From: Burkholderiales bacterium
GTDB lineage: Bacteria; Pseudomonadota; Gammaproteobacteria; Burkholderiales; Thiobacteraceae
Reading direction: 5' to 3'
DNA: 37,977 bases
Assembly: GCA_018781585.1 (NCBI GenBank)
Contig: JADMJT010000109.1
Coordinates: 26,558 to 64,534, forward strand
In this document: positions 2,800 to 32,601 of the stretch, one piece after another
How the letters are laid out: the number at the start of each line of letters is the position of its first letter
Position numbering within the stretch: position 1 is the first letter of the stretch
Notes under the pieces: model-generated
What the model was told of the DNA's origin: nothing
The model's database searches: none
What the model saw: only the letters and a program-made list of their open reading frames with translations
Made by a program: the position numbers and the translations under genes

Positions 2800-2846
2800 G
2801 TAGCGCCGGCTTCCAGCCGGCATGCAAGCAAAGATGCTTGCGCTAC
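2800..2846. repeat. Compound inverted repeat (outer arms with two internal hairpins), REP-like or possible glnD terminator
   Basis: GTAGCG...CGCTAC outer arms enclosing CCGGC-TTCCA-GCCGG and GCAAGCA-AAGA-TGCTTGC hairpins. Confidence 0.8.
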
Positions 2847-3151
2847 TTAAGACTTGCACTCGACGTTGGCGCGGGCACGGCCAATCCACCATGCTCGATT
2901 TGATACAACCACGCCAGCAATTCCGCCACTGCCATGTACAGCTCGGGCGGAATGTGCTGATCCATATCCACCTGCATCAAGAGTGATACCAGCGCCGGCG
3001 ATTCGTGCACATAGACACCGGCCTCTTTCGCGCGCTGAATGATGGCCTCGGCTAATATGCCGCGCCCCTTCGCTACCACTTTCGGTGCCTGCATGCCCTC
3101 TTGGTAAGCAAGCGCGATGGCGGTTTTACGCTGTTCAGGCTGATCCGTCAT
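2843..3151 (-). CDS. FlhB C-terminal-domain-like protein (EscU/YscU/FlhB-like)
   Basis: 102 aa: TAIALAYQEGMQAPKVVAKGRGILAEAIIQRAKEAGVYVHESPALVSLL resembles the cytoplasmic FlhB C-domain; next to fliK. Confidence 0.85.
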   Translation of the reverse strand: MTDQPEQRKTAIALAYQEGMQAPKVVAKGRGILAEAIIQRAKEAGVYVHESPALVSLLMQVDMDQHIPPELYMAVAELLAWLYQIEHGGLAVPAPTSSASLK

Positions 3152-7683: not shown

Positions 7684-8538
7684 TTAGCGCAACAGACTCA
7701 AGGCCGTTTGCGGGAGTGCATTGGCTTGAGACAACACGGCGGTACCCGCTTGCTGCAAGATTTGACCACGGGTTAAGTTGGCTGTCTCTGCCGCAAAATC
7801 TGCATCCAAAATACGGCTGCGAGATGCTTCCAAGTTCTCCACATAGTTCTGCAAGCTGGAGATCACCGCTTCAAACCGGTTCTGCACCGCGCCAAAGGTC
7901 GAGCGTATCGTCGACACTTGGCTGATGTCGGAATCCAAGGACGCCAGCGCAGCGGAAGCAGTGGCCTGGGTGGTCACGTTGACAACGCCCGTAGCCGTCA
8001 ACGTACCACTGAAGGTAAATAGCCCCGCCGCGCCCGTTAGCGCGAGATTGGTCGTGGTCACCGACAATTGGTTGGTCGATGTGCCGTCCGCGCCGACCTG
8101 GAAGGTTAGCGTGCTCGCACCCGAGAGCAGATTGGTGCCGTTGAACTGCGTGGTGCTGACAATCCGCGAGATCTCTTGCGTCAGCTGATCCACCTCTTTT
8201 TGCAGTTGCGACCGGTTGGTGTTGCTAATCGTACCGTTCGCCGCCTGCACGGCGATTTCACGAATCCGCTGTACGTTACTGCCGATCTGACCCAGCGCAC
8301 CTTCCGCCGTTTGACCGAGAGAAATCCCGTCGTTGGCGTTACGTACTGCTTGGCCGTTACCACGAATTTGCGCTGTGAATGCTTGCGACACAGCAAGACC
8401 TGCTGCATCGTCTTTCGCGCTGTTCACACGCAGGCCGGAAGACAAGCGCTGCAAGGTAACAGCCAACTGTTGGCCTGACGCAGACAGGTTACGTTGTGCA
8501 TTAAGAGATGCAATATTGGTATTGACGACTAAAGCCAT
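7684..8538 (-). CDS. fliC: Flagellin, copy 1 (284 aa)
   Basis: [52 protein letters not shown]...[35 protein letters not shown]. Confidence 0.97.
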
Positions 8539-8617: not shown

Positions 8618-9472
8618 TTACCGCAACAGACTCAAAGCCGTTTGCGGGAGTGCATTGGCTTGAGACAACACGGCGGTACCCGCTTGTTGCAGAATCTGGC
8701 CGCGGGTCAAGTTGGCCGTCTCTGCTGCAAAATCCGCATCCAAAATACGGCTGCGAGATGCTTCCAAGTTCTCCACATAGTTTTGCAAGCTGGAGATCAC
8801 CGCTTCAAACCGGTTCTGCACCGCGCCAAAGGTCGAGCGTATCGTCGACACTTGGCTGATGTCGGAATCCAAGGACGCCAGCGCAGCGGAAGCAGTGGCC
8901 TGGGTGGTCACGTTGACAACGCCCGTAGCCGTCAACGTACCACTGAAGGTAAATAGCCCCGCCGCGCCCGTTAGCGCGAGATTGGTCGTGGTCACCGACA
9001 ATTGGTTGGTCGATGTGCCGTCCGCGCCGACCTGGAAGGTTAGCGTGCTCGCACCCGAGAGCAGATTGGTGCCGTTGAACTGCGTGGTGCTGACAATCCG
9101 CGAGATCTCTTGCGTCAGCTGATCCACCTCTTTTTGCAGTTGCGACCGGTTGGTGTTGCTAATCGTACCGTTCGCCGCCTGCACGGCGATTTCACGAATC
9201 CGCTGTACGTTACTGCCGATCTGACCCAGCGCACCTTCCGCCGTTTGACCGAGAGAAATCCCGTCGTTGGCGTTACGTACTGCTTGGCCGTTACCACGAA
9301 TTTGCGCTGTGAATGCTTGCGACACAGCAAGACCTGCTGCATCGTCTTTCGCGCTGTTCACACGCAGGCCGGAAGACAAGCGCTGCAAGGTAACAGCCAA
9401 CTGTTGGCCTGACGCAGACAGGTTACGTTGTGCATTAAGAGATGCAATATTGGTATTGACGACTAAAGCCAT
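8618..9472 (-). CDS. fliC: Flagellin, copy 2 (284 aa, protein identical to copy 1)
   Basis: Same amino-acid sequence as 7684..8538; consensus-like RBS GAAGGAGAATCATCATG. Confidence 0.97.
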
Positions 9473-9649: not shown

Positions 9650-12600
9650 TTAGTTAACTTTATTGCGTAAGGCCTCGGCCAGTGTTTTCAAGACGAGTTG
9701 CCAATCTCCGCGCAGAGTTTGCCGAAATAGGCGTGCCGAGGGATACCAAGGCGTTGTTTGCATCTTTAATCCCCAACGCCAATCCGGCGCATAGGGCAGC
9801 AAAACCCATACCGGCACACCCATCGCTCCGGCCAAGTGAGCCACTGCCGTGTCCACGGAAATCACCAGATCGAGTTGGCTAATGGCCGCAGCCGTGTCGG
9901 CAAAATCGCTTAGCAACGGGGAGAGATCGTTCATCGGAAGACCAGCATTTACGTATTCACCCGTGTCACGCCCTAGTTGCAAGCTATAAAACACGGTGCG
10001 TGGCATGCCGGCGAGTGCCGCAGCCAATAATTTAACGTCCAAAGAACGATCCAGATCATCTTGATGTGCAGCCGCGCCCGCCCACACCAGCCCCACTTTG
10101 AAACTATCAGCAGATTGCGTAATCGCTGGCTTGATTCGTGCGATGCAGCTTGCATCTGCCACCATATAGGGCGCTGGCTCGGACACATCAGCCAGCGTCA
10201 CCCCGAACAAACCGGGCAAGCTCATGAGCGGAACCTGCATATCAATCAGCGCAAGCGGCACATCGTTATTCGAAATCACGCTATCGACGCCCTCACATGC
10301 ACGGATCAGTGCATGCAAGGCCGGTTGGCATGCAACGACCAACTTACCCACGCGCGACCTGGCTCGACTCAAAAAGCGAGTAAACTGGATGGCGTCACCG
10401 AAGCCCTGCTCGGCGCTAACCAGCAAGGTTTTCCCTGGCAGCATGTCACCCTGCCAAGCAGGATAAGCGTATTGCGTCATGGGCCGCGCACCCGCCCGGA
10501 TACCCCACTCGTATTCGGGCCAACCTCGGGCATAGTCGCCCAATAATAGCCAAGCAAGCGCGCGATTCCAGCGCGCCTCAGCAAAATCTGGTGTGATTTG
10601 AATAGCGCGATCAAAAGCGTCAAGCGCCGCTTGCACTTCGCCTTGGCGTTGCAAGGCAGCGCCCAAATTACTCCAGGTGCCAGCGTTCTCAGGGTTTTGC
10701 GCGAGTGCTGCCCGATAGTGCTTTACCGCCTCATCAATCCGCCCCAAGGCACGGCAGGTATTGCCCAGGTTGTTTCGCGCTTCAAGCAGGGACGCATCAA
10801 TGCTTAATGCCTGCTTGAATTCGGCCACAGCATCAAGCAGCTTTCCCTGCGCCTTGAGTGCTACGCCGAGCGCATTGTGCGCGCCCGCATGGTTCGCTTG
10901 AATACTCAAAGCTTGACGGAAACAGTTTGCCGCATCTGCAAGCTGCCCTTCCAAATACAGCGCATTGCCCAAATTCACCAAACTTTCCACAAAAGTCGGC
11001 GCAAGCCTGATCGCTTCTTTGAATTGCGTGATGGCCTGATTCCGCTCTCCTAAACTCAGCAAGGTCAAACCATAATTATTCAGGCACTCAGGGCTATGTG
11101 GCTTTAGCGCCAACGCGGCTTGATAATAATGGCTCGCGTGCAGAAGCTCGCCTGCGGTATGACGCAATAAACCTAAGTTAAACAACACTTCAGGATCATC
11201 ATTACCGAAGCGTAGCGCCTCCAGATAAAAAGCCTCTGCTTGTTCAGCTTGCCCCAGCGATTGCAAGGCGATGCCCAGCAGCCGCAACACCTCGGGATGC
11301 TCAGGCCAAGCCTCATAAGCCACGACCAAATGCGTTAAGGATTCAGCGAATAGTCCTTGCTTCAATTCCGCTACACCGAGCAGCCAATTGGCTTCCGGCA
11401 TTGCCGCATGCGTTACTGCGGATAGCGCAGTGGAATCCACCATATCCCATCTTGCTTCGCGCACCGCTAGCCGTGTCTGGCGCAGCAAGGAGATCGTTAT
11501 TGCGTCGTAAGTTGCCAGGTTTGCTGTCATCGGTGCGCGGGTCGCAACAAGCTGCATCAGCGATGATTTCAAGCGCGTGAATACACTCTCCCAATCGCCC
11601 GCATTGGCTTGCCGAAACAAACGCATGCTGGCATACCAAGGACTGGCATCCCCTGCCTCCAGCCAGCGAAAATCAGGCGCATAAGGCAGTATCACCCAAA
11701 CCGGTTTATTCATCGCGCCTGCCAAATGTGCGACGGCGGTGTCCACACAAATCACTACATCCAGATTGGCTATGGCGGCAGCCGTGTCGGCAAAATCGTC
11801 AATCTCTGGATCGAGGTCGACGACGCGCTCGCTGAATTCCAAATCTTGCAAATCGCGCACCGCCTCTCCCTTTTGCAGGCTGTAAAAACCTATGTCCGGC
11901 AGCGCGAGCAAATCGAGAAAATGATGCAGCGCACAGGATCGATTTTTGTCGTCTTCATGCGTGGGCCGCCCTGCCCACACGATCCCGACACGCAAGCGTG
12001 GATCGCCTCCCAAGCGCGCGGCCCAACGTTGCACTAAACATGGTTCGGGATGAATGTAGGGAAATTCGCATGGGATGGTTTCGCTCCGCGTATTAAAAAC
12101 ACGCGGCAAACTCAGTAAAGGCAAGTGCGTATCGAACGCCACCAAGGGCGCACCCGAAACCGGTCTCTCGGCAATCATGTCGATGCCGGGCGTACGCAAT
12201 AACAGCCGCTTGAGTCCGGGCTGGCACGCCATCACGACTTTACCCCCCAAGGCCCGAATCAAAGGCGCATAGCGCACAAACTGAAAGGTATCGCCAAATC
12301 CTTGCTCGGCGCGCAACAGAATGGTTTTGCCAGCGAGCGGCGCACCTTCCCATTGCGGCTGATTAAATGCCATCAGTTGCCGCTGCTTAATACGCAATCG
12401 CCACTCATATTCGCGCCAGCCTTCCTCAAACTCGCCTTTAAGCAGCAAAATTAAAGCGAGATTAAAATGCGCGTTAATGTGGTCGGGCTGATGCGCGATG
12501 GCTTGTCTGAATGCCGACTCGGCCTCGGTCATGCGCTGGCATTTTTGTAGCATGACGCCCAGATTACTCAACAGCTCTACGTCGTTGGGTGCGATGGCCA

Positions 12601-13198
12601 ATCCCGCTTGAAAATACGCCACCGCATCGGCGTAGCGCCGTTCCTGCATGGCGATGGTGCCAAGCCCGCGATGCGCCTCGACCTGGCTTGCATCCAGCAC
12701 TAATACACGTTGGTACTGCGCTTCCGCCTCGCGTAAGCGCATCAGCTCATGCAGCGTAGCGCCCAGATTAAAATGGCCCTCTACAGACGATGGCGTCAGC
12801 GCGACAAATTGCCGATATGCGCCTTCGGCTTCTGCAAAATTTTTCGTCCGATAAGCCATGAGGCCCAAGTGATACCAGGATTGTGCGTCATGCGGACGAT
12901 GCGATAGCACCGCCTTATAGCACTCCGCCGCAGCCGCTATATCAGATAGCGCCTCCAATACATGCGCTAGGTTTAGCCAGGCATCTATATGAGTGGGTTG
13001 CAGGACGACCAGTTGGCGCAGCTCGTCGGCGGCCAACGCCCACTTGCTTTGTTGCGCGTGCAAGGTCGCATTCAAGAAGCGCGCGTCGATATTGTCAGGA
13101 TCAGCGGCGAGTAGCTGCATATAGCCCGCCTCTGCTGCCGCTAAATCGCCGCGCAGATGGCTATCGGAGGCCTGCTTGATTAAGGCATGCGTGTCCAT
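9650..13198 (-). CDS. TPR repeat protein with two tandem TPR + GT-B (GT9/heptosyltransferase-like) modules; candidate flagellin glycosyltransferase with FlmG-like architecture
   Basis: 1182 aa; both halves carry TPR arrays then W[EQ]G..L.GKT.L..AEQGFGD..QF.R...DFADTAAAI..LD[VL]VI.VDTAVAHLAGAM..PVWV[IL]LPYAPD[FW]RW. Confidence 0.85.
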   Translation of the reverse strand: MDTHALIKQASDSHLRGDLAAAEAGYMQLLAADPDNIDARFLNATLHAQQSKWALAADELRQLVVLQPTHIDAWLNLAHVLEALSDIAAAAECYKAVLSHRPHDAQSWYHLGLMAYRTKNFAEAEGAYRQFVALTPSSVEGHFNLGATLHELMRLREAEAQYQRVLVLDASQVEAHRGLGTIAMQERRYADAVAYFQAGLAIAPNDVELLSNLGVMLQKCQRMTEAESAFRQAIAHQPDHINAHFNLALILLLKGEFEEGWREYEWRLRIKQRQLMAFNQPQWEGAPLAGKTILLRAEQGFGDTFQFVRYAPLIRALGGKVVMACQPGLKRLLLRTPGIDMIAERPVSGAPLVAFDTHLPLLSLPRVFNTRSETIPCEFPYIHPEPCLVQRWAARLGGDPRLRVGIVWAGRPTHEDDKNRSCALHHFLDLLALPDIGFYSLQKGEAVRDLQDLEFSERVVDLDPEIDDFADTAAAIANLDVVICVDTAVAHLAGAMNKPVWVILPYAPDFRWLEAGDASPWYASMRLFRQANAGDWESVFTRLKSSLMQLVATRAPMTANLATYDAITISLLRQTRLAVREARWDMVDSTALSAVTHAAMPEANWLLGVAELKQGLFAESLTHLVVAYEAWPEHPEVLRLLGIALQSLGQAEQAEAFYLEALRFGNDDPEVLFNLGLLRHTAGELLHASHYYQAALALKPHSPECLNNYGLTLLSLGERNQAITQFKEAIRLAPTFVESLVNLGNALYLEGQLADAANCFRQALSIQANHAGAHNALGVALKAQGKLLDAVAEFKQALSIDASLLEARNNLGNTCRALGRIDEAVKHYRAALAQNPENAGTWSNLGAALQRQGEVQAALDAFDRAIQITPDFAEARWNRALAWLLLGDYARGWPEYEWGIRAGARPMTQYAYPAWQGDMLPGKTLLVSAEQGFGDAIQFTRFLSRARSRVGKLVVACQPALHALIRACEGVDSVISNNDVPLALIDMQVPLMSLPGLFGVTLADVSEPAPYMVADASCIARIKPAITQSADSFKVGLVWAGAAAHQDDLDRSLDVKLLAAALAGMPRTVFYSLQLGRDTGEYVNAGLPMNDLSPLLSDFADTAAAISQLDLVISVDTAVAHLAGAMGVPVWVLLPYAPDWRWGLKMQTTPWYPSARLFRQTLRGDWQLVLKTLAEALRNKVN

Positions 13199-13207
13199 TT
13201 GATCGGG

Positions 13208-16200
13208 TCAACGCACCAAGGCACGCAACCATTCGTCTAAATGATCTTCAAGCATGTAGTTTTGCAATACCCATTGTTTTAATTGATCGCCTTCGCGTGC
13301 GGCAGCATCCAGATCATGCACACGCTCGCGAATCGCATCGACCCAGGCTTGCGGATCATTATTCGTCACGCGCGCAACCGGTGCATTCTGATAGGGATAG
13401 ATATCGGTACACACTACCGGCCAGCCCAATATGCCGTACTCCAATAGGCGCAGGTTGCTCTTGGCTTCGTTGAACGGGTGAAGTTCCAGAGGCGCAACCG
13501 CCAGGTCAAGATTTAAGCTGGCCAATTTGGCCGGATAGTCATAGAAGGACAAGACAAAATCATGGAACTCGCGCACATAGGGGCGCAACGTATCGGGACA
13601 CATACCGAAGAACACCCAATCCACTTCACTCGCTGTTGCTTTAACCACCGCTTCAATCAAGGCCAGATCGCCCGCGTGCTGTTGTGCGCCCGCCCATCCC
13701 ACACGCGGTTTTGCCCCCTGTCGGCGGTGTGATGTTAGATCGCCCCATAGGGCGCGTTCCAAGCGATTGGGTATCACATGCACTTCTTCGATCATCGGGC
13801 GACACAATTCGGCCAGCGGCTCGGTACTGACCACCGCCCGGTCGCACAAGGCCAACGCCTTGCGCATCCTCGGCTTGGCATCCCGGAAGGAATGGCGGTA
13901 ATAAGCGTTTTGTCTGGGAACCTGCGTCATCAAGTCATCCAGCGCAAACACGCGCAGCACATCTGGATTGTGCTGTTTGTAAGACGCCAACGCTTGCAGA
14001 TGCGCGTTGTCTATCGCGGTTTGCAACACCAGGGTATCCGGTTTTGAGCGCTCGATTTCCGTCGGCATCAATATCCGTGTTTGGAACATTTTCCCCATTT
14101 GAACCACATCGCACTGCGCCAGACCCGCGCGGCTCAGGGCCCGGAACGGGCCGATCACGCGATACTCGCCGGATCCACCCGCTAGCGGCGATGCGAGTAT
14201 TCTCGGCCGATCGTGAAAGTTCGGATCCCAATCAATGACTACCGTGCCTTCCACTTGATAGCCCGGCTGCATGAGACTTAAGTGCCGATTGTAGGCAGGG
14301 TCACTCGCCAGCAGCGGCAACCAACGTTGAAACATGGTGGTGTATTCGCGTTTTGCGCGTTCGGCGTTGATGGCGTATTTCATCACGTCGGGCTCCGCCT
14401 CCTTCAAGCTGCTCGAACCATGATGCACAACCGTCGCGAATGGGGTCCAGACAATTTTGTAACCCAAATCACCCGCTCGCAAACATAAGTCGATATCGTT
14501 GAAGAGCACCTTCAGGTGTTCCGCATCCATTCCCCCAATCTCCTCATAGAGGCTCTTGCGAATCAGCAGGCAGGCAGCGGTCACCGCTGAATAGTTCTGA
14601 TCCACCTGGGCGCGATGCATGTAGCCGGGGTCGGTAATAGACAGGACACCGTTGAACGGATGATCGGCAATGCAGCTCATGCCCAATACAACGCCGGCGT
14701 GCTGGAGCTTTCCCGACTCTGGATACACCAGCCGCGCCCCGACGATGCCGACGTCGGGACGCTGCCCATATGACAGCAGGCGCTCGAGCCATTCACCCTG
14801 AACAATTTGCGTATCGTTATTCAACAGCAGGAGGTACTCGCCTTTTGCCTCCCGTGCGGCCAGGTTATTCATGGCCGCGAAGTTGAATTCGGCGTCAAAA
14901 GAAAGCACGCGCAGCCGCCCCGGGAACCGCTGCCGCAATTCCTCGTAGTAATCGAGTACATCGGGATCGGTGCTCTGATTGTCCACGATGAGAATTTCAT
15001 AATCGGCGTAGCTGGTCTTCTCGAGCACGCTCTCCACACATGGCTCCAGGAACTCGAGCTTGTCGCGGTTCGGGATGATGATGGATACGAGCGGATTACC
15101 CACCCGCTCATAGACAACGCGATGCGTGCCTGGCACATAACCCTCGTCCACCCTGCCTTGGATCCCCTGGCGGACAAGGTGCTGGTTGACCGCCTCTCGC
15201 GCATTCTCCTCGTTGCCTATGGCATCCCAACTGCTCGGGAGGTGCAGCAGAACATCCGCGACATGACCGATCGCCTGCTCCCCATACCGATCAAGCACCC
15301 GCAAGGCCATATCGTAAGTCTCTGCCCGTTCCAGAATCGAATATCCACCGGTCTCACCCAGCGCATCGGCCCGGAACAGGCAGGGTCCGATATAGTCCGT
15401 TGAACGCAGAAAGTCGAGGTTGAAATCGGGTTTAAAGCGCGGTTCGGCAAATTCTCCGGTTGCGTTGACCCGATCATCATCGCAGTAAATAAGCCGCCAC
15501 TCCGGATGCAGGTTAACGTAATCTCCACAGCGAATGAGGGCATGCGGCTCGAGCGCCGCGCCCGGAGGCGCCAGCAACAGCCATCTCGTGTCCGCCCCAG
15601 CAATCAACGCATTCACGGCGGCCCCCCTTTCGGCGGTCGTACGCGCTTCGATCCAGCGCAACTGGGCTAGCTCATGAAAAACCGCATCCGGGGCTGGAAA
15701 GTCGGCAACGACTGTCAATCGCCAATCCGCATAGAACTGAGCCCCAAGCGAGTCAAGTGTGTCCGCTAGGAGCGGCTCTTCGCCGGGCGCCAAGATCAGC
15801 ACAATCTGAAACACGGGGCGCTCTTTCCAAACCAGTGTCATGCGTTCCGCAAATAATTGCGCGTCGATCTCCTGCAAGCTACGCTTGCTACGCCACGCTA
15901 GGTATTCTTGCTGGTTGCGATCGATTTCGCGCGGCTCTTCCTTCTTAAATGCATGTTTTACATAACCGGCATCTTCGACATCATTCAGCGATGGCCGTGC
16001 CAGCATGAAAAACTGAAGCGCACTTAGTTCGAATACCTCCTCCGGTGTAGCATTCTTGATTATGATTTTGTCTGTTTCGATATCAACACTATTTCCACTC
16101 ATACTCGGAATGACCACTCGGCCATCCTTGTTTGCTCCGATTTTCGACACTGCATAACCGGTTTCTCTAAAAGCCCTCTTCATTTCTTCAAGCGTAAAAA

Positions 16201-18049
16201 ACCGGATGGGCGTCATATCCGAGAGGTCAGCATGCTCGCATGACCAACGCCCTTGTGCTAATTGATCCATCAGCCACAAATTTCGTACGTTAGGAATACC
16301 GGCAAGAATCTGCGCATCGGATGTCAATACCTTTTTAAGGTTGGCAAGCACACTCCATGGATCATAAAAGTGCTCAAGAACGTCAGCGATAATTACCGTA
16401 TCTATGCTGTTGGGTTCAATTCCGACATCGTCCCAATTGATCCCATCGATTTTTTCATTTATCACCCTGTCAATCCGACTACTGGCAACTTCGGCTGCCG
16501 CTTTATTAAATTCAATGCCGATTACTTCCGCTTCCGGAAATTTTTCCTTAATCGCTGCTCCGATTCCCCCCCTATTGCAACCAATTTCAAGTACACGTTG
16601 AGGCCGCCGCTCAAACATTGCTATCAGGTCTATGCGAGGAATATCCGGATGGCCTTCCATCAGGGTTGCGCTACTCGCGCCCAATGCATCATAAGCGCTG
16701 GGTTCGGCCTTGTGGTCGGGGCTAGAAAGAATCGTTGCGCGCAGGGAGGGTCGCGCAGAAGTATCATTATCCAATGCCATTTCACCCATTAGCTTTGTCA
16801 CCTGTTCAGTCGCTGTCCCATCTATGGTGGAATTGTAATAATGCACTCTTGCCTTCGAGGCTTCCAACAGTTGCGCACGAAAATCGGTATCGTAGAGAAC
16901 ACCCACTAAGGCATTGATTAGATTATTCGGCTCCACCTCGACAATACCCGAGCCGCCATCAAAAATTGGGCCTAGACGCACACCAGGCTCGTTGATCAAA
17001 TTAATAGCCGGAACTTCTGCGAGCATCGCTTCCACTGTAAGATTTGAATCCACTGAAACTACAACATCTGCTGCCGTTATGTGTATCTCGGTTTCGCTTG
17101 TCACATAAGCAAAAGAATTAGACTGAACGCCCGCTTCACTTGCTGCAGCCATAACAAGATTGCGCCCAAAAGCTACATTAGACGCGCGATCTTTAATGAT
17201 CAAATTTAGGGCAAAACCTGTCTTCCGTAGCTCAGCATAGGCCTGAAAAACTGTAATCAACGTGTTATCAATGAGTGCATCATCAGCAAGTGCCGAATGC
17301 TCTCCACGCGAGGTTGTTCCAAACAACAAGATGGGCGCCTCTGAATCAAAGGCATACTTGGTAATGACGTATTTGCGAAGTAACTCACGTTTCTGCTTGT
17401 ATTGTGCATAAATATCCCAGGCCGGATTTCCCGTAATCCTTATGCGATCGGGAGGTATTCCAAGATCGTAGTAGGGCTCCGCTCCTCTCTCCCCAAAAAC
17501 CGCAACCACATCAGCACTCAACTGCCCATGCACCGTGTAAGGCTTAGCCAGTTGAAGCGCATGCGCAAGATGTAAGCTTGGAATGTTTCTCGTTTTGGCC
17601 CAACAGACAACAGTCTTTGATAATTGCATGTAGTCCTCGTTGACAAGAACCAACTCAAGAAAGAACTGCTGATGAACCTTTTCTAACATCTCAACGATAA
17701 CCATACCTTCAAAAAGATGCTGAACAAAATTTTGTAAAATTATTGCATCTGTTATGCTCGGGTCAGCACTAAAACGATTACGCCAGCTTATCCATGAAGC
17801 ATCTGTCATTAGCGCTTTACATTGCTCAGCACGCGTAGCAGACGCTTCTCTCAATTTATCTATTTCGCTCTTTGTAAGAAGCGATTCGAGAATCAGTAAC
17901 CGACTTCCTCTTAACTCAATTTCGCGTTTCACTTCATCGTTGCAGTACTGTGCCAGCGTCAGCACAACCCGTGGCTTCTGAGACAAGTAATTGAGTAAGA
18001 CAAGGCCATTCTTAGACCAAAGAAGATATAACACAGCGGCCTGTTTCAT
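13208..18049 (-). CDS. Giant multidomain glycan enzyme: N-terminal GT-B/epimerase-like domain, SAM methyltransferase, two GT2-like domains, C-terminal GT1/GT4-like domain
   Basis: 1613 aa; VLEIGCNRGGIGAAIKEKFP (SAM motif I), IADVLEHFYDPWSVLANL, VSIIIPNRDKLEFLEPCVESVLEKTSYADYEILIVDNQSTD (GT2), GWAGAQQHAGDLALIEAV and LRLLEYGILGWPVVCTDI (GT-B). Confidence 0.85.
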   Translation of the reverse strand: MKQAAVLYLLWSKNGLVLLNYLSQKPRVVLTLAQYCNDEVKREIELRGSRLLILESLLTKSEIDKLREASATRAEQCKALMTDASWISWRNRFSADPSITDAIILQNFVQHLFEGMVIVEMLEKVHQQFFLELVLVNEDYMQLSKTVVCWAKTRNIPSLHLAHALQLAKPYTVHGQLSADVVAVFGERGAEPYYDLGIPPDRIRITGNPAWDIYAQYKQKRELLRKYVITKYAFDSEAPILLFGTTSRGEHSALADDALIDNTLITVFQAYAELRKTGFALNLIIKDRASNVAFGRNLVMAAASEAGVQSNSFAYVTSETEIHITAADVVVSVDSNLTVEAMLAEVPAINLINEPGVRLGPIFDGGSGIVEVEPNNLINALVGVLYDTDFRAQLLEASKARVHYYNSTIDGTATEQVTKLMGEMALDNDTSARPSLRATILSSPDHKAEPSAYDALGASSATLMEGHPDIPRIDLIAMFERRPQRVLEIGCNRGGIGAAIKEKFPEAEVIGIEFNKAAAEVASSRIDRVINEKIDGINWDDVGIEPNSIDTVIIADVLEHFYDPWSVLANLKKVLTSDAQILAGIPNVRNLWLMDQLAQGRWSCEHADLSDMTPIRFFTLEEMKRAFRETGYAVSKIGANKDGRVVIPSMSGNSVDIETDKIIIKNATPEEVFELSALQFFMLARPSLNDVEDAGYVKHAFKKEEPREIDRNQQEYLAWRSKRSLQEIDAQLFAERMTLVWKERPVFQIVLILAPGEEPLLADTLDSLGAQFYADWRLTVVADFPAPDAVFHELAQLRWIEARTTAERGAAVNALIAGADTRWLLLAPPGAALEPHALIRCGDYVNLHPEWRLIYCDDDRVNATGEFAEPRFKPDFNLDFLRSTDYIGPCLFRADALGETGGYSILERAETYDMALRVLDRYGEQAIGHVADVLLHLPSSWDAIGNEENAREAVNQHLVRQGIQGRVDEGYVPGTHRVVYERVGNPLVSIIIPNRDKLEFLEPCVESVLEKTSYADYEILIVDNQSTDPDVLDYYEELRQRFPGRLRVLSFDAEFNFAAMNNLAAREAKGEYLLLLNNDTQIVQGEWLERLLSYGQRPDVGIVGARLVYPESGKLQHAGVVLGMSCIADHPFNGVLSITDPGYMHRAQVDQNYSAVTAACLLIRKSLYEEIGGMDAEHLKVLFNDIDLCLRAGDLGYKIVWTPFATVVHHGSSSLKEAEPDVMKYAINAERAKREYTTMFQRWLPLLASDPAYNRHLSLMQPGYQVEGTVVIDWDPNFHDRPRILASPLAGGSGEYRVIGPFRALSRAGLAQCDVVQMGKMFQTRILMPTEIERSKPDTLVLQTAIDNAHLQALASYKQHNPDVLRVFALDDLMTQVPRQNAYYRHSFRDAKPRMRKALALCDRAVVSTEPLAELCRPMIEEVHVIPNRLERALWGDLTSHRRQGAKPRVGWAGAQQHAGDLALIEAVVKATASEVDWVFFGMCPDTLRPYVREFHDFVLSFYDYPAKLASLNLDLAVAPLELHPFNEAKSNLRLLEYGILGWPVVCTDIYPYQNAPVARVTNNDPQAWVDAIRERVHDLDAAAREGDQLKQWVLQNYMLEDHLDEWLRALVR

Positions 18050-22415: not shown

Positions 22416-23264
22416 TCATTTCCACTGCTCGCGAATCCCCTTCAGCGGTCGCAGCCCGTCCGATGGATCCGCGCGCCACATACGATCGGACAGTTCAGAG
22501 GGGACTGGCTCCTTGATGCCATTACCATCAGCTTCAAAACCCTTCTTCACATCCCGAATCACGGCAGCGATCTGATCCGGCAGCCAGCAATGCCCCGCCT
22601 CGAACTCTTCCCCCTTGCCATCCAGATCGAGATGAAATTCAATGATCCTGGCGCCCCACCGATGAATCGCCCGGTGGATAACGGCGGGCTCCACGGTGTG
22701 ATCAGACCAACCTACCTCGCAGCCCGTCACCTGGCGAAGGGTCTCGATTGCAGCAAGGTTAGCTTCAGCGTAAGGCGTAGGATAGGCCGAAGTGCAGTGA
22801 AGAAGCGTCGGGGTCTTACAACCGTTTTGATGAAGCACTTCAACCGCGTGCTTGATCTCATCAATCGTCGCCATTCCGGTAGAGAGAATCACTGGCTTGC
22901 CGGTTCGAGCGCAGGCGGCCAGCAGCTCATCCCAGAGCAATTCGTAGGAGGCGATTTTGAAGAACGCCACATGCGGCTCAAGTGCTGAAACCGCGTCCAG
23001 GTAGAACGGCGTACAAGAGAACTCAATGCCCAATTCACGGCACCGTTGTGCCAGTTTGGGTACAAACTCCAGCGGCAGCTCCCAGTTTTTTCTCCGTTTT
23101 ACTTCAGATGCCGGCAACGCATTGGCTACAAACAACTGATCCACACGGAATAGTTGAAATTTGACCGCAGAACACCCCGCATCTGCAGCGCACTGGATAA
23201 AATCCAAAGACCGCTCAAGGTCTCTGGAATGATTACTTGAAACCTCAGCAATAAAATCGACCAT
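22416..23264 (-). CDS. N-acetylneuraminate/pseudaminate synthase family protein (NeuB/PseI-like) without C-terminal SAF domain
   Basis: FIAEVSSNHSRDLERSLDFIQCAADAGCSAVKFQLF...KIASYELLWDELLAACARTGKPVILSTGMATIDEI...LLHCTSAYPTPYAEANL; ORF ends at 282 aa. Confidence 0.85.
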   Translation of the reverse strand: MVDFIAEVSSNHSRDLERSLDFIQCAADAGCSAVKFQLFRVDQLFVANALPASEVKRRKNWELPLEFVPKLAQRCRELGIEFSCTPFYLDAVSALEPHVAFFKIASYELLWDELLAACARTGKPVILSTGMATIDEIKHAVEVLHQNGCKTPTLLHCTSAYPTPYAEANLAAIETLRQVTGCEVGWSDHTVEPAVIHRAIHRWGARIIEFHLDLDGKGEEFEAGHCWLPDQIAAVIRDVKKGFEADGNGIKEPVPSELSDRMWRADPSDGLRPLKGIREQWK

Positions 23265-23272
23265 GATTAAGA

Positions 23273-24055
23273 CTACCCTAAAAGGTTACCGCATCCAGCG
23301 AGCCAACCGCCATCGACATAGATTGACTGACCCGTAATATAACTCGATGCATCAGAGGCTAGGAAAACCGAAACACCAGCCAAGTCTTCTGGCGAGCCAG
23401 CACGCTTCATGGGTATAACGTCAAGGAATTTGGTACGTTTCGATGCATCGACAAACAAATCTTCGGTCATATTGGTTCTAAACCTACCTGGCCCTATACA
23501 GTTCACAGTAATGCCATGCTGGGCCCACTCCACTGCCATGGCTTTGCATAGCTGTCGAATTCCTCCACGACTAGCGGCATAAGCGGCGATATTAGGTATA
23601 CCAATTTCTGCCGTAAGTGAGGTGATCATGATAATCCGCCCGGAATTTTTCGAAATCATGTGCTTAGCAGCGGCCTGAGCACAATAAAACGTACCGTTTA
23701 AATTGATCTGTAGGACCTCATTCCATGCGTCGTGATTAAAAGTCAGCGCGGGGCTCCGATGTTGAATTCCGGCTGCGGTCACCAAAATATCGATTTGTCC
23801 AAGTCGCTGAATCACACCATCAATCATCGCATCAACTTGCTTAGCGTCAGCAACATCGACAACATAAGTGATGACCCGATCTAAAGATTCCCCCAATTTT
23901 TGAATAGCGCTTTTAAGTTTATTCTGGTCGCGTCCTGCCAGAACAACAGTGGCGCCTGCTTCAATATACGCTTTTGATATTGCAAACCCCAAGTCACCAG
24001 TCGCGCCGGTAATGATGGCTACCTTATTCTCAAGAGAGAAAATTGACTTTTCCAT
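23273..24055 (-). CDS. SDR family oxidoreductase
   Basis: VAIITGATGDLGFAISKAYIEAGATVVLAGR; YAASRGGIRQ; C-terminal YITGQSIYVDGGW. Confidence 0.9.
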   Translation of the reverse strand: MEKSIFSLENKVAIITGATGDLGFAISKAYIEAGATVVLAGRDQNKLKSAIQKLGESLDRVITYVVDVADAKQVDAMIDGVIQRLGQIDILVTAAGIQHRSPALTFNHDAWNEVLQINLNGTFYCAQAAAKHMISKNSGRIIMITSLTAEIGIPNIAAYAASRGGIRQLCKAMAVEWAQHGITVNCIGPGRFRTNMTEDLFVDASKRTKFLDVIPMKRAGSPEDLAGVSVFLASDASSYITGQSIYVDGGWLAGCGNLLG

Positions 24056-24135
24056 TCACTGTGACCCCTCTGCACAAAACGGTAAATTATCCTAGATATG
24101 CGCCATTGAAATGCAACTCCCGAAATATTTTTCAT

Positions 24136-24921
24136 TCACAGATCTGTGTGCCGCCCCCACCAAGCATTTTTCGTCCATCCACCATCCACGACAATCTGCT
24201 GTGCGTTGATATGTTTGGCTTCGTCCGAGACCAAGAACGCAACCGTGGAGCTAACATCTGTTAAGTCGCCGATCCTCACATTAGGTGTACGAGAAAGCAT
24301 TCCGGCTTCATTGTTGACATCTTGCGAAAGAAACCATCTTGTTCGAGGGGTGAGAATTGGACCAGGCGCAACCGTATTTACGGTGATTCCATAGTGCCCC
24401 CACTCAACCGCCAATGCACGTGAAAAACCCTCGACTCCAGACTTGGCAGCATTGTAGACAGACCTGAATGGGTAAGTGGCGACGTCATGGAAGCTAGTCA
24501 AGTTAACGATCCGGCCATATCGTTGCTCGATCATGGATCGACCAAATGTCTTACAAGACAAAAAAACACCGTCAAGATCGGTAGCAAGCACGGATCGCCA
24601 CTGCTCCATGCGGATGTCCTCTAATTTCCCAGATGCGGCCGGTGCTGCAGCGCAGGTCACCAGAATATCGACTTTTGAATAGGTACTAATAGCCTGGCTA
24701 TAAACACGGGCCAATGAGGCTTCATCGCTGACATCACAAGCATAGTAATCGCTACGTTTGCCGTCAGGATCAAGTTGCGCAAGAGCCTGCTCCATTTTTT
24801 CTGGAGAGCGCCCCAACAAAATAATATGCGCACCGAGGGAGTGGAGTGTTTCGGCGATGGCCAGCCCGAGAGCACCGGCGCCACCAGTGATCACCGCAAT
24901 ACGGTTGGGAAGAGCAAGCAT
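24136..24921 (-). CDS. SDR family oxidoreductase
   Basis: IAVITGGAGALGLAIAETLHSLGAHIILLGR; YNAAKSGVEGFSRALAVEWG; QQIVVDGGW. Start MLALPNRIAV at 24921 preferred over 24963. Confidence 0.9.
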   Translation of the reverse strand: MLALPNRIAVITGGAGALGLAIAETLHSLGAHIILLGRSPEKMEQALAQLDPDGKRSDYYACDVSDEASLARVYSQAISTYSKVDILVTCAAAPAASGKLEDIRMEQWRSVLATDLDGVFLSCKTFGRSMIEQRYGRIVNLTSFHDVATYPFRSVYNAAKSGVEGFSRALAVEWGHYGITVNTVAPGPILTPRTRWFLSQDVNNEAGMLSRTPNVRIGDLTDVSSTVAFLVSDEAKHINAQQIVVDGGWTKNAWWGRHTDL

Positions 24922-25508
24922 TAGATTTTTTCCCACGATGGTTTTTTGCACAAGTAAGCCCATACGTAGTGAACCTTGACACCAGGCTCGCCAACAACCG
25001 GGTGATAGCCCATGGGAATGGTACTGAATGAATGGTCATCAACAAACCATGCGGCCTTTACAGCACTACCATCGTGCCACACTCCCTCGCCGACTTGGAT
25101 AGCCCTTTGATTACCGCCGGCAATCAGATAAAAGAAAACTTCTTCAAAACCAAGTTCCGGGTTTAATTCAAAGTCATGCGGAAGACTCGACCAGGTTCCA
25201 TTACCACGATGCTTGGTAATTCCCAGGCGCAACTCCGGCGCCGGACCGCCAGGCTTAAGATAATGGTAGACATCCCTTTGGGCATTGCCTTCCCCGACCA
25301 CTATATGGTGCGCTTCATGGTTTTGAATGACCGTTTTCCGGCCACCATGGCGGCATACGACGCTAAGAATATCCGCACCATCCAGATAAACCTCTGCAGT
25401 TTCATTAGCTGTTTTAAAAATGAGCTTTGATTCGCCACCACTCGCGTGAAGAACGTCAAGTTTTGTCTCGTTACACCATGGGTATGACATAGCTACTTTC
25501 TTTGACAT
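24921..25508 (-). CDS. IolB/KduI-like (5-deoxy-glucuronate isomerase family) cupin protein
   Basis: 195 aa; THRGNGTWSSLPHDFE-type region ITKHRGNGTWSSLPHDFE, GFEEVFFYLI, IPMGYHPVVGEPGVKVHYVWAYL resemble IolB. Confidence 0.6.
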   Translation of the reverse strand: MSKKVAMSYPWCNETKLDVLHASGGESKLIFKTANETAEVYLDGADILSVVCRHGGRKTVIQNHEAHHIVVGEGNAQRDVYHYLKPGGPAPELRLGITKHRGNGTWSSLPHDFELNPELGFEEVFFYLIAGGNQRAIQVGEGVWHDGSAVKAAWFVDDHSFSTIPMGYHPVVGEPGVKVHYVWAYLCKKPSWEKI

Positions 25509-26670
25509 TATTTAATGCTAATTGCAATGATTTCTCGCGTTCGAAATCGATCCCTAGCGCAAATTTCCGCCCGATACAGTCTTTAGCCCCGGGAGAAATA
25601 TCAGCCATTATTGATGCATACAAACTTGGGTTCTTAAATTCGAAGAACGAGTACCACAAATCCAAGTCGAGTTGTTCACCAAGTGCCAAGCGAATTATCC
25701 CGCCCTGAAAGTCTGCGCCTCTTGCTGGGGTCGTAGCCGAACTATCCCACCCACCAGACAAGCGGGGGGTCAGTTCGATAATAATGGGGCCGTGGTTAGT
25801 CAGCATGACGTCTGCTTTCAGGATATGCCCACCGCTTTCCTCTTTCATGCCCAGGGCAAGCCCTGCAGCATGAACCATTTCATGAATTTGATTCCTGATC
25901 GAAACAGAATGGCATGCTGGATTGATATGTCCGATTTCAACCCCCCAACTCACGGGATCGATTTGCAAGCCATGTAGACTTGGAAAAAATTTCAAGTCCG
26001 ATCTAAATAAGCGATCGACCCAATTCAGCCAGTACATCTTTCCATTGAACCAGAGGGTCTCAACAGACAGTTCCGAAATGCAGTCCTCGCGAGGATTCAA
26101 TGCTTCTTCGATGATGACTGAACCGCTCGTCCCTGCGCTGATGGCCGTTGCAAATACATCGTCAGTTAACTCCACTGGTGAATTGATTTTAGCGAAACCT
26201 CGGCTCCCCGAGTTGTCCGTGGCCTTGATCACACATCGGCCTCCTAGGATTTCAAGAAATGATCTTGCCTCTTCGATATTTTGCACACAGGCGAATTGTG
26301 GCTGAGGAATCCCCGCATCAGTCAAGACCGCTCTTGTGAGATTCTTATGTCTGCAAATGTGCGAAATCTCGGGGGAGATTCCGGGGAGCCCGAGTTGTCG
26401 ATTGACATGCGCGACTGTCTCGTGGCAGTCCGCCGCAAGCGTGACTCCTGCGGAGATAGTGTACTTTTGTCGAAGTTTCTCGGCTGCCGCCTTGTTCCCA
26501 TCGATATCAAAAGTATCGCACTCAACAAATTCATGCGCATATTTCGCGCAAACACAATCTCGATTGAGGTCTGCAAGTATTAGCTTGTACCCGAAATCGA
26601 GTATCTTCTTAGCGGCAGATTCCTGCATCGGTCCGCCCGCGAATAGCCATATTGCTTTTTCTTTCTTCAT
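25471..26670 (-). CDS. ATP-grasp domain ligase
   Basis: 399 aa; GRCVIKATDNSGSRGFAKI, VIIEEALNPREDCISELSVETLW, HILKADVMLTNHGPIIIELTPRLSGGWDSS. Confidence 0.8.
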   Translation of the reverse strand: MKKEKAIWLFAGGPMQESAAKKILDFGYKLILADLNRDCVCAKYAHEFVECDTFDIDGNKAAAEKLRQKYTISAGVTLAADCHETVAHVNRQLGLPGISPEISHICRHKNLTRAVLTDAGIPQPQFACVQNIEEARSFLEILGGRCVIKATDNSGSRGFAKINSPVELTDDVFATAISAGTSGSVIIEEALNPREDCISELSVETLWFNGKMYWLNWVDRLFRSDLKFFPSLHGLQIDPVSWGVEIGHINPACHSVSIRNQIHEMVHAAGLALGMKEESGGHILKADVMLTNHGPIIIELTPRLSGGWDSSATTPARGADFQGGIIRLALGEQLDLDLWYSFFEFKNPSLYASIMADISPGAKDCIGRKFALGIDFEREKSLQLALNNVKESSYVIPMV

Positions 26671-26685
26671 GCTATAGCTGCCCCG

Positions 26686-27543
26686 TCAACTTAAAATGAA
26701 GAACTTGGGTAGCGCCAAAGTCAAATTTTTTGCTAATTTGTCAAACGCTGTTTTATATGGATCAGAAACATATTTTGCATAAGCATTAGCCCCAAAAGAA
26801 GACTGCGCTACGCATTCGAATCCTTCATTTTCAAAAAGAGCGAGCAATGCTTTTCGAGAAAATAAATGCAAATGCTCTACCACAAGGTAATGCGCGAAAG
26901 CCTCCTTCATGAATAGCGTCAAATCTCCAAAATGTGGCGTTTGAACAATAACCCTCCCGCCGATTGACAATAATGATTTGATTTCCCTGACTAGCTCTCT
27001 AGGATGTGGTACATGCTCAATCACATCCCATAGAGTTATTAAGCCAAAGTTTTTCTTAGAGATCTCTTCAATATGAAAGCATCGATAACCTTTTTCTCTT
27101 GCAACCAAAATCATATCTGCGCCTATGTCAACGCCATAAAGATTTTCCTTAGGCACACCTTCGGCTACCAAAAAATCAAAAAAAACACCATCCGCACATC
27201 CATAATCCAATATATCACCTGAATTAATGAGCCTCCCAGATTCAAACCCAACATCATTCAGTGAATAAGCGTATTCGTTAAATACTGTCGATCTATATTC
27301 GTCAGAAAAGCGGAGCTTATGGCTAACACCTGCATCCATTCCGTCCGATAGATCCATTTTTATATAATCAGAGTTGTAATACTTCGTAAGTTCTTCCTGT
27401 GTCGGATAAGGGTCAATATGTGCGCTTCCACAATGTTTGCAAAGTACCCATGCAGACTTGAGGTGCCCATGTATTTTTTCTACAAGAAAGACACCTTCAA
27501 ATGACCCACATATACGGCATTGATTTTTCATGAGTACGGTCAT
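26686..27543 (-). CDS. Class I SAM methyltransferase with N-terminal Cys4 zinc-ribbon-like motif
   Basis: CRICGSF...VLCKHCGSAHIDPYPTQEELTKYYNSDY; DILDYGCADGVFFDFL; LWDVIEHVPHPRELVREI. Confidence 0.8.
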   Translation of the reverse strand: MTVLMKNQCRICGSFEGVFLVEKIHGHLKSAWVLCKHCGSAHIDPYPTQEELTKYYNSDYIKMDLSDGMDAGVSHKLRFSDEYRSTVFNEYAYSLNDVGFESGRLINSGDILDYGCADGVFFDFLVAEGVPKENLYGVDIGADMILVAREKGYRCFHIEEISKKNFGLITLWDVIEHVPHPRELVREIKSLLSIGGRVIVQTPHFGDLTLFMKEAFAHYLVVEHLHLFSRKALLALFENEGFECVAQSSFGANAYAKYVSDPYKTAFDKLAKNLTLALPKFFILS

Positions 27544-28481
27544 TCTATGAATTCACTGTTTTTTTTCATATACAGAACAACCTCACGACCCATACCCTGG
27601 CTGGCAAATGCAGAATACAAATCTGTTAGTACATTACCCAGCCCGCTTTGGTTCATGGCCTTCTCAAAATTCATGCGTTTTGTATGACATGCCCGCCCCA
27701 ATTCATCGTTCCCAATGTAGTTATCGCCCATGAGTAAGAACATATCGATCGGGAAGGTGGCCTCTTTGTGCACCACTTCGAACCCGCATCGCTCTACCAG
27801 CCTGGAAAGCGAATCAAAATCGAAATAGTTAATGTGGTGCGGGGGAGCAACCCACCAAGGTTCGAATCCGAGGTGATCACGCAGCACCATCTGAAAGGGG
27901 TTAAAGTCGTTGGGCACTATGATGCAAACCATGCCGTTATCGTTCAATTGACCATTTACCAAGGACAAGAGTGCAGCGGGGTCTGGGATATGCTCCAGCA
28001 CTTCACCCATGTTGATGGCATCGAAATGCCCAAACTTCGGCGCCGTTGTCTCAGTAAAAAACACATTCTCAATATCAAGACCTAACCCAAGACTGTGCTT
28101 GGCCGCCTGCATAGAAGGCTCAATGCCCTTCACCTGCCAGCCCCGCTTCTTGCCGTTGAGCAGGAAGAAGCCTGGTCCTGAACCGATATCCAGCAAGCGC
28201 CGCCGCTCAGCAGGCAAATGCTGTTCCAGAATTGCGTAGCGCTGAGCGTAGACCATATTCCACCAGTCGAGGTCTTCTCGATAGCGCTCTATGTAGAGCG
28301 GCTTTTCCTGTATGTAGTAGTCGTGCTGATAAGCCTTCTCCAGCTCTTCTTCGGTGGGGATGGGAATGATGTGCTTGAATCCGCAAAGCTTGCAATCAAT
28401 GACATCAAAGCCATTGGCGGAGGCAACTACGGTGCCTTCATGGCCTTGCCAATTTTTTTGTATGATTTGGTTTTCGACCAC
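27540..28481 (-). CDS. Class I SAM methyltransferase
   Basis: LLDIGSGPGFFLLNGKKRGWQVKGIEPS; INMGEVLEHIPDPAALL; CKLCGFKHIIPIPTEEELEKAYQHDYY N-terminal motif. Confidence 0.85.
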   Translation of the reverse strand: MVENQIIQKNWQGHEGTVVASANGFDVIDCKLCGFKHIIPIPTEEELEKAYQHDYYIQEKPLYIERYREDLDWWNMVYAQRYAILEQHLPAERRRLLDIGSGPGFFLLNGKKRGWQVKGIEPSMQAAKHSLGLGLDIENVFFTETTAPKFGHFDAINMGEVLEHIPDPAALLSLVNGQLNDNGMVCIIVPNDFNPFQMVLRDHLGFEPWWVAPPHHINYFDFDSLSRLVERCGFEVVHKEATFPIDMFLLMGDNYIGNDELGRACHTKRMNFEKAMNQSGLGNVLTDLYSAFASQGMGREVVLYMKKNSEFIE

Positions 28482-28485
28482 GCTT

Positions 28486-29811
28486 CTACTCTTTTGTTAA
28501 TCGCTGAAAACCGGTATGCGCGAGCGGGGTATCGATACTGCTCGCGGGATCAGCAGCGATGAGCGCAAAAACCTCATTAACCGCGATTTGGTATTTCTCA
28601 ATATCCGTTGGCTGATGTGCCAGTGATGGTTTGAATTGCCGAAAACCTAGAAAGCCGCGTTTGAGCATCTCGATCGTGAAGCGCGTGTTCAACGCTATCG
28701 TGTTGGCGCTCTTGAAAGCAAATGCCGCAAGCGACGGCAATCCCGTCACATTGATTTCCATGCCATGGGTCTCAGCAGCACCTCGCCAGATTTGTTTAAC
28801 CTGGCTGCCCGTGTCGATCAAGTGCTTTTCCACCCCCAACCGCTGATATTTCCTTAGGGTCGCCAAAGCGGCGGTGGGACCGATGCGATCTGTCCAATTG
28901 GTGCTGGAAATGAAAGTGGTCTGGGCGGACTGCATCACTTTCTCGATCCCCATCACCACCGACATGGCATAACCGTTGGCCATGGATTTGGCAAAGACTG
29001 CCATGTCGGGGTGAACCCCATAATTGCGGTGGATGCCACCGGCACACATACGGAACCCGCTGGTGATTTCGTCAAAGATGAGTACGGCGCCAATCTCCGT
29101 CGCCAGTTCGCGCAGGGCTTTGAGATATCCGGCGGGAGCGTCCTCACCTCGGGCGGGTTCGATGATGATCGCGGCAATCTGTTTTTCCTTACCCCGGACC
29201 TTTTCGCGAAGTGAATCGATATTGTTGGCATCAAAGGGGATAGCCGTGCCGAGCAGCCCCCTGGGAACACCGTTTGGCTGAAGACCGGGCATGAGTTGGC
29301 CATCCAGGCCGGCGCTATCTGCCAAGTTGGCGGCCAGGTACCAGTCATTCCAGCCGTGGTAGCCGCTGAACATGATGACATCGCGCCGGGTGTGGGCACG
29401 GGCAATCCGCACGGCCAGACCCATGGCCTCGCCGCCACTTCTGGCGTAGCGCACCATGCCGAACCAAGGATGAAGCTCGATGAGCGCTTCTGCCAGCTCG
29501 ACTTCTTCCGGGCAGTTGAGCGAACTATTAACTCCACTGCGTAGTGCCTGAACGACGGCATCGTCTACCTCGTCATCGGCATAGCCGAGGATGCAGGCAC
29601 CGACCGCCATGATGGACATGTCGATGAACTCGCGCCCATCCAAATCCCAAACCCGACAGCCCTTGGCCTTGGAGTAGTAAGAAGGCCAGACATCGGGCGC
29701 AAACATCTCCGGACGCTTGGAGAGTAATTGTGTGCCGCCGGGGATGAGGGACTTTGCGCGGCTGTAAAGCGCCACGCCCTTGCTCTGTTTCAGTTCTTCA
29801 AGGCTGTACAT
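28486..29811 (-). CDS. Class III aminotransferase, glutamate-1-semialdehyde 2,1-aminomutase-like
   Basis: SLIPGGTQLLSKRP...YARSGGEAMGLAVRIARAHTRRDVIMFSGYHGWNDWYL...LIFDEITSGFR...AVFAKSMANGYAMSVVMG. Confidence 0.85.
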   Translation of the reverse strand: MYSLEELKQSKGVALYSRAKSLIPGGTQLLSKRPEMFAPDVWPSYYSKAKGCRVWDLDGREFIDMSIMAVGACILGYADDEVDDAVVQALRSGVNSSLNCPEEVELAEALIELHPWFGMVRYARSGGEAMGLAVRIARAHTRRDVIMFSGYHGWNDWYLAANLADSAGLDGQLMPGLQPNGVPRGLLGTAIPFDANNIDSLREKVRGKEKQIAAIIIEPARGEDAPAGYLKALRELATEIGAVLIFDEITSGFRMCAGGIHRNYGVHPDMAVFAKSMANGYAMSVVMGIEKVMQSAQTTFISSTNWTDRIGPTAALATLRKYQRLGVEKHLIDTGSQVKQIWRGAAETHGMEINVTGLPSLAAFAFKSANTIALNTRFTIEMLKRGFLGFRQFKPSLAHQPTDIEKYQIAVNEVFALIAADPASSIDTPLAHTGFQRLTKE

Positions 29812-30574
29812 TTGCTTTCCTGTCTTCTGCGAGGGATTTCAGATAACCCTCGTTCCGAATAATGTTGCTGTTGATAGTCATCACTTCGGGCTCTTTGTCG
29901 AGCAGCGCGAGAATTTCCGGGGCCAGGAACGGGGTTTCCTCCCGATAGAGCCGGGCAAAGATAGCTTGAAGAAATTCGTAATCGCGCGGCTCATCCAGTG
30001 TCCAGCGATGGTGTGATAAACCCTCGAACTTCTTGAGTCCTCCTGTTTTGAACAGTTCGGGATGTTTTTCGATATAGGGGCCGACATGCTCGCGCTCGGA
30101 TTTCAACTTGGCCTCACGCCATGCGCGCTCCAGCGCGGCAAACGAAAAGACTGTGCAATCCAGACCATCCGGGAACTCGCCCGAAAGTCCGTAGTAGTCA
30201 TACCCGCCCGCCAAAAAGCCCGTGACCACTTCATCCACAATCGTCGGGTCAAGGGCGGGGCAATCCGCAGTGATGCGCACAACGACATCGGCCTGATAGG
30301 TCTTTGCTGCTTGGTAGTAACGATCGAGCACATCATCCAGACTGCCACGGTAATGGCTGACCTCTTCCTTTTCGCACCAAGCCTGGATGGCGTCGTCAGT
30401 GTGCTCGGTTGAGGTGGCAACCACTACTTTCGTGATTGTCTTGCAGGCTCGGATACGTCTGACCACGTGTTCCAACACCGGCTTGCCTGCCAAAGGCATT
30501 AAAACCTTTCCCGGTAGGCGCGAGGAGCTCATCCGGGCTTGGATGATGGCAACGATGTTCTTTGTCTGATTCAT
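29798..30574 (-). CDS. SpsF/NeuA-type cytidylyltransferase (PseF-like candidate)
   Basis: IVAIIQARMSSSRLPGKVLMPLAGKPVLEHVVRRI...VVVRITADCPALDPTIVDEVV. Confidence 0.85.
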   Translation of the reverse strand: MNQTKNIVAIIQARMSSSRLPGKVLMPLAGKPVLEHVVRRIRACKTITKVVVATSTEHTDDAIQAWCEKEEVSHYRGSLDDVLDRYYQAAKTYQADVVVRITADCPALDPTIVDEVVTGFLAGGYDYYGLSGEFPDGLDCTVFSFAALERAWREAKLKSEREHVGPYIEKHPELFKTGGLKKFEGLSHHRWTLDEPRDYEFLQAIFARLYREETPFLAPEILALLDKEPEVMTINSNIIRNEGYLKSLAEDRKANVQP

Positions 30575-32594: not shown

Positions 32595-32601
32595 TTGTGC
32601 C

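Follow-up and report, generated by a model that had tools for sequence, protein, structure and literature searches.

A tandem TPR-glycosyltransferase encoded directly before fliC is a probable second flagellin O-glycosyltransferase

Results

A protein with two TPR-glycosyltransferase modules is encoded before the flagellin genes

The analysed stretch of DNA (37,977 nucleotides from a member of the Thiobacteraceae, referred to below as the window) encodes, directly before fliC, a 1182-aa protein that combines two TPR-glycosyltransferase (TPR-GT) modules, each having an intact set of GT motifs. We consider it rather probable that this protein is a soluble, cytoplasmic O-glycosyltransferase of flagellin and that it is a second transferase beside an Fgt-like neighbour; flagellin as the acceptor, the activity of both modules and the order of action are what we infer. 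The features of the locus are collected in Table 1.

Table 1. Positions of the features discussed, in window coordinates.
Feature	Position	Strand	Basis
Tandem TPR-GT-TPR-GT protein, 1182 aa, ATG start	9650..13198	-	ORF, Pfam, module alignment
Module 1 TPR superhelix, residues 1-271, eight hairpins	12386..13198	-	Model; Pfam TPRs
Module 1 GT9-like domain, residues 280-555; EQGFGD (D303), VDTAVAH (D486, H491)	11534..12361	-	Pfam, alignment, model
Module 2 TPR superhelix, residues 589-904, ~nine hairpins	10487..11434	-	Model; Pfam TPRs
Module 2 GT9-like domain, residues 914-1181; EQGFGD (D935), VDTAVAH (D1116, H1121)	9656..10459	-	Pfam, alignment, model
Methyltransferase/GT2 protein, 1613 aa; C-terminal 900 aa at ~13211-15910	13208..18049	-	Pfam, profile search, flank reading
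Flagellin gene fliC copy 1, presumed acceptor	8618..9472	-	Sequence
Flagellin gene fliC copy 2, identical protein	7684..8538	-	Sequence
Sugar cassette: PseB, PseC, SAF-less NeuB-like protein; possible, unproven donor source	22416..33612	-	Profile matches

The gene is a single uninterrupted, intact ORF on the minus strand. Pfam detected many TPRs in its product and Glyco_transf_9 matches in both GT parts, the latter just above the cut-off of PF01075 (24.3 and 25.9 bits against 22). With the EQGxGD and DT..H motifs also present, both domains were classed as GT9-like TPR glycosyltransferases, and Glyco_transf_41 was not among the Pfam matches listed for either the whole 1182-aa protein or the GT domains alone. 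The two modules align with each other over 537 aa (36% identity, E 3e-104), the GT domains taken alone being 43% identical. Modelled separately, each on a 17-row alignment, both modules were predicted to consist of a TPR superhelix ahead of an alpha/beta GT domain; the superhelix has about eight repeats in module 1 (mean pLDDT of the module 85.8) and about nine in module 2 (86.9). The initial annotation had read two complete TPR + GT modules in one protein, with GT cores at 12375-11570 and 10480-9670. ORF, Pfam, module alignment and models bear this out, and the domain limits that we find (~12361-11534 and ~10459-9656) agree closely.

The best solved folds for both models were SPINDLY and O-GlcNAc transferase (Foldseek, E 1e-17 to 4e-19). 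TM-scores were modest (0.3-0.5) over these whole-protein alignments, so the likeness lies more in the overall plan than in close agreement of the GT domains; when PDB sequences were searched with the GT profile, TPRs were the sole matches. O-GlcNAc transferase (GT41) and SPINDLY likewise place a TPR superhelix before a GT-B enzyme that acts on cytoplasmic proteins, but they contain a single module, whereas the window protein has two and its GT domains match GT9 and not GT41. The GT9 heptosyltransferases, to which the PF01075 matches point, act on the LPS core and are not known to have TPRs. A search of the literature found no report of a tandem TPR-GT flagellin enzyme.

The tandem form is conserved before fliC and the genome lacks Maf

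The end of the TPR-GT gene is separated by 177 bp from the first of two fliC copies, confirming the previously noted position directly upstream of the flagellin genes; flaG, fliD and fliS come after the two copies. The copies are identical at 842 of 855 nt and encode identical proteins. Tandem-bearing relatives with a readable locus have one fliC copy at this place, which indicates, judged from these sequences, that duplication or gene conversion has recently shaped the window pair. A sigma-28-like site before fliC scored 12/16, a value reached by 9 of 300 shuffles and too weak for use. Adjoining the flagellar genes, positions 2843-3151 encode a small protein like the C-terminus of FlhB.

Tandem orthologues (42-58% identity) are present in five genus-mates (G002, G003, G004, G005 and G007), and the tandem gene is therefore not an assembly artefact. 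It lies directly before fliC in G002, G003, G004 and G007, where the genes after it are fliC-flaG-fliD-fliS or, if the contig stops there, fliC; the G005 contig breaks off within the tandem gene. In the tree, all modules 1 form one clade (support 100/99) and all modules 2 another (99/98), and thus the tandem form predates the split of these species. A sister relation of modules 1 and 2 was neither shown nor rejected (AU p 0.35), both duplication and fusion of paralogues being compatible with the data. Two genomes from other families of the same order, G022 and G056 (loci L049 and L052), carry a single-module TPR-GT at 138 and 141 bp from fliC.

Maf (PF01973) shares with the proposed enzyme a role in the cytoplasmic glycosylation of flagellin, but is an unrelated domain. 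PF01973 had no match in the whole window genome, which is 98.7% complete, while the same model matched in 40 of 150 genomes of the phylum. The absence of Maf, reported previously for the locus, thus holds genome-wide. The Maf N-terminal model PF20157 was dropped as a test because it matched no control, which makes its absence uninformative. To our knowledge, few cases of flagellin glycosylation without Maf have been described.

The window protein thus probably acts on flagellin. This is supported by the position of its gene before fliC in the genus and of single-module relatives in two other families, is consistent with the resemblance of the models to the protein-glycosylating TPR-GT enzymes SPINDLY and OGT, and is suggested by analogy with the homologue FlmG, which binds and glycosylates flagellins (PMC7591256). 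Against it stand the many TPR-GT9 copies away from flagellin, which are most of those examined, and the Fgt-like neighbour, which in many genomes is found alone beside fliC with no TPR-GT nearby.

An Fgt-like neighbour is a better candidate for adding the first sugar

The TPR-GT gene starts 9 bp after the 13208-18049 gene, a spacing from which the two are probably co-transcribed. The C-terminal 900 aa of the product of that gene were found in 33 of 276 genomes of the class (E below 1e-90), while its N-terminal part varies across genomes, the open frames spanning some 1200 to 2700 aa. We read 26 other Fgt-like loci with their flanks, a set that leaves out G110 and G118, which do have a TPR-GT9 nearby. 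fliC was located within 400 bp in 15 of them, within 1 kb in 17 and within 5.4 kb in 21, and a GT9-type TPR-GT was nearby in none of the 26. On these sequences, the C-terminal half of 13208-18049 is a more widely conserved fliC-adjacent putative transferase than the TPR-GT. In this bacterial class, the widely conserved fliC neighbour is the Fgt-like gene.

In P. syringae, fgt1 and fgt2 are located upstream of fliC and Fgt1 puts rhamnose on serine (PMC3927599); in P. aeruginosa, flagellin of a mutant in pa1091 (FgtA, a GT2 enzyme) is nonglycosylated (PMC11833859). What these Pseudomonas proteins have in common with 13208-18049 is a gene upstream of fliC and a GT2 domain, a likeness by layout and domain alone. 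It belongs to the neighbour and not to the TPR-GT, whose gene in the window sits between 13208-18049 and fliC; we know of no TPR superhelix described for Fgt1 or FgtA. FgtA is also of the GT2 family (PMC11833859), unlike the GT9-like tandem protein. Because of the fliC adjacency in many loci and the Fgt1/FgtA precedents, 13208-18049 appears a better candidate than the TPR-GT for the transferase that initiates flagellin glycosylation, and we hold the tandem TPR-GT to be a second, lineage-specific transferase. This neighbour, although the main rival transferase, had not entered into the initial annotation.

A stricter division of labour has a sizeable though lesser chance of being correct: 13208-18049 would add the first sugar in the way of Fgt1/FgtA, and the tandem TPR-GT would only extend it, by one further sugar per module. 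This is a sub-form of the preferred explanation in which the TPR-GT would never be the linking enzyme. It is favoured by the 15 loci in which the C-terminal half of the neighbour lies within 400 bp of fliC, all of them having no TPR-GT nearby, by the transfer of rhamnose to serine by Fgt1 (PMC3927599) and by the nonglycosylated flagellin of the pa1091 mutant (PMC11833859). However, TPR superhelices are expected to grip protein rather than glycan, in the case of FlmG it is the TPR-GT itself that makes the linkage (PMC7591256), and the comparison of the neighbour with Fgt1/FgtA is one of layout and GT2 domain alone.

The window protein is FlmG-like in plan but lies outside the FlmG clade

FlmG of Caulobacter (596 aa) binds flagellins through its TPR part and links pseudaminic acid to them (PMC7591256). 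By scanning named genomes with a Caulobacter flagellin sequence and then reading the flanks, a 596-aa TPR-GT of C. vibrioides was recovered near flagellin (L215 5919-7709, minus strand), which we take to be FlmG on the basis of its length, architecture, organism and nearness to flagellin. FlmG-like loci were absent from the genomes of family f238. In Asticcacaulis benevestitus, two FlmG-type GT domains occur in adjacent frames near flagellins (L276 5262-6784).

FlmG and the window protein share N-terminal TPRs, a homologous C-terminal domain of the GT-B superfamily, a gene close to the flagellins and a genome without Maf. The window GT profile matches FlmG across its whole GT domain (E 2.8e-48), although identity with the two window modules is 26% and 27%. 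FlmG differs in having a single module, FSNATINLAGA where the window modules have VDTAVAHLAGA, and a pathway that includes a full-length NeuB. At the second GT motif, [SPA]NATxN was present in 11 of 11 FlmG-type domains of Caulobacteraceae, as compared with DTAVAH in both window modules. The FlmG proteins group in a clade of their own that excludes the window modules (support 100/100), and grouping them with modules 1 and 2, or with module 2, was rejected (AU p 3.7e-5 and 6.8e-5, respectively). The separate clade and the different motif indicate that the window protein is not a member of the FlmG clade and make a different donor plausible. Hence, of the earlier FlmG-like designation, the architecture, homology and flagellin linkage stand; membership of the clade does not.

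A nonulosonic acid is a possible but not a favoured donor

In the upstream sugar cassette, PseB and PseC exceed the NCBIfam cut-offs, but scores far under the respective cut-offs, that for NeuB/PseI included, were obtained for the NeuB-like, PseG-like and cytidylyltransferase proteins. The NeuB-like protein (22416-23264, 282 aa) has no C-terminal SAF part and the next gene starts immediately after it, so the arginine normally provided by SAF must be either absent or supplied otherwise. Further members of the cassette, which is nonulosonate-like but unusual, are a KidO-like aldo-keto reductase, a cytidylyltransferase, a glutamate-semialdehyde-aminomutase-like protein, two methyltransferases, an ATP-grasp protein, a KduI-like protein and two SDRs. 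The PseG-like protein is encoded after the cassette, at 21404-22390, and a GH57-like protein at 19428-21401 lies within the same flagellin glycosylation island.

NeuB (PF03102) had no match in G022, a 100% complete genome that carries one of the fliC-adjacent single-module relatives. The NeuB candidate of G056 (~45 bits, PF03102) was rejected, as it reads as a DAHP synthase and lies beside prephenate dehydrogenase and HisC genes. In G003, glycosyltransferases but no sugar-synthesis genes adjoin the tandem gene, and NeuB is on another contig. Together these genomes indicate that the nonulosonic acid link is a feature of the window and not of the family, and that a donor other than a nonulosonic acid is possible; more generally, a TPR-GT near flagellin does not imply one.

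A FlmG-like enzyme that moves CMP-activated pseudaminic acid, or a relative of it made by the upstream cassette, onto flagellin is accordingly an unlikely reading. It has in its favour PseB, PseC and a NeuB-like protein in the same island, homology to a pseudaminic acid transferase (PMC7591256) and a genome without Maf. Weighing more heavily are the position of the modules outside the FlmG clade, their lack of NATxN, the fliC-linked relatives in genomes without NeuB, the surroundings of the tandem gene in G003, and a window NeuB that is SAF-less and scores far under the cut-offs. The nonulosonic acid donor of the initial annotation is thus possible, but neither favoured nor proven. Its proposal of a flagellin transferase, on the other hand, remains probable in view of the fliC linkage, the TPR-GT architecture and the absence of Maf.

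TPR-GT9 proteins form a large family with recurrent flagellin linkage

TPR-GT9 proteins are numerous. Among 52 other loci of the same class, outside the tandem set, flagellin was within 6 kb in nine, against an expectation of ~0.9% per locus (binomial ~7e-10), a statistic that overestimates the link, since fliC-linked members went into building the profile and the 6 kb distance was set only once the data had been seen. The recurring slot between the Fgt-like gene and fliC is a stronger argument than this count.

An accidental gene position, the true acceptor being another protein or a glycan, is quite improbable: the family is large and mostly found away from flagellin, and other TPR-GTs occur elsewhere in the window genome, but the same slot before fliC is occupied throughout the tandem-bearing genus-mates with a readable locus and, by the single-module form, in two more families. 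Contig C44 of the window genome encodes three consecutive TPR proteins (L043 4576-10084). A zinc-type motif, CPCGSGKK, occurs in two of them, and two of the three are TPR-GTs whose second GT motif reads VSN[AT]NMH, reminiscent of the SNATIN of FlmG.

Both modules look active and may belong to a modular series

E-Q-G-x-G-D and D-T-x-x-x-H were invariant in a 12-row alignment of modules 1, modules 2 and two single-module relatives, and both modules of the tandem orthologues examined keep EQG[FY]GD and VDT[AS]VAHLAGA. By comparison with GT9 heptosyltransferases, we take D303/D486/H491 and D935/D1116/H1121 to be catalytic or donor-binding positions. On sequence and models, both modules look active. 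That one of them is a pseudo-enzyme, as the initial annotation had considered, with a regulatory or binding function in place of catalysis, is very unlikely: divergence of the GT domains to 43% identity and the slightly lower conservation of module 2 within the genus (mean 54% against 59% for module 1) are outweighed by motif residues that are invariant in both modules across the tandem orthologues and by models of two complete GT domains.

In the mechanism that we favour, each TPR superhelix would hold unassembled flagellin and each GT9-like domain would add one sugar from an activated nucleotide sugar to Ser/Thr side chains or, alternatively, extend a sugar already on flagellin. Glycosylation by the tandem protein would precede flagellin export and would take place beside, not instead of, that by the conserved Fgt-like transferase.

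More tentatively, a single protein carrying two superhelices that grip flagellin and two distinct active sites might make two linkages, or a disaccharide, per flagellin in the cytoplasm. It would belong to a modular series, with one to three GT9 modules or a GT9 module joined to an OGT-like one, in which the number of modules would set the glycan. If the modules differ in acceptor or donor, the rule that protein choice lies with the TPR part could be tested within one enzyme. In G110 (L104 7878-10385), a fliC-linked TPR-GT9 module is fused to a second TPR-GT of OGT type, a label that comes from reading the sequence with no database match behind it. Three GT9 modules share a single frame in G118 (L122 6131-10588), downstream of an Fgt-like gene; their contig stops short of any flagellin gene. 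Outside the class, two paralogous TPR-GT9 genes, forming two separate clades, lie in tandem in several families (L192-L198); a PF01973 (Maf) match is nearby on the same contig, and most of these loci also have PseB-, PseC- or NeuB-like genes.
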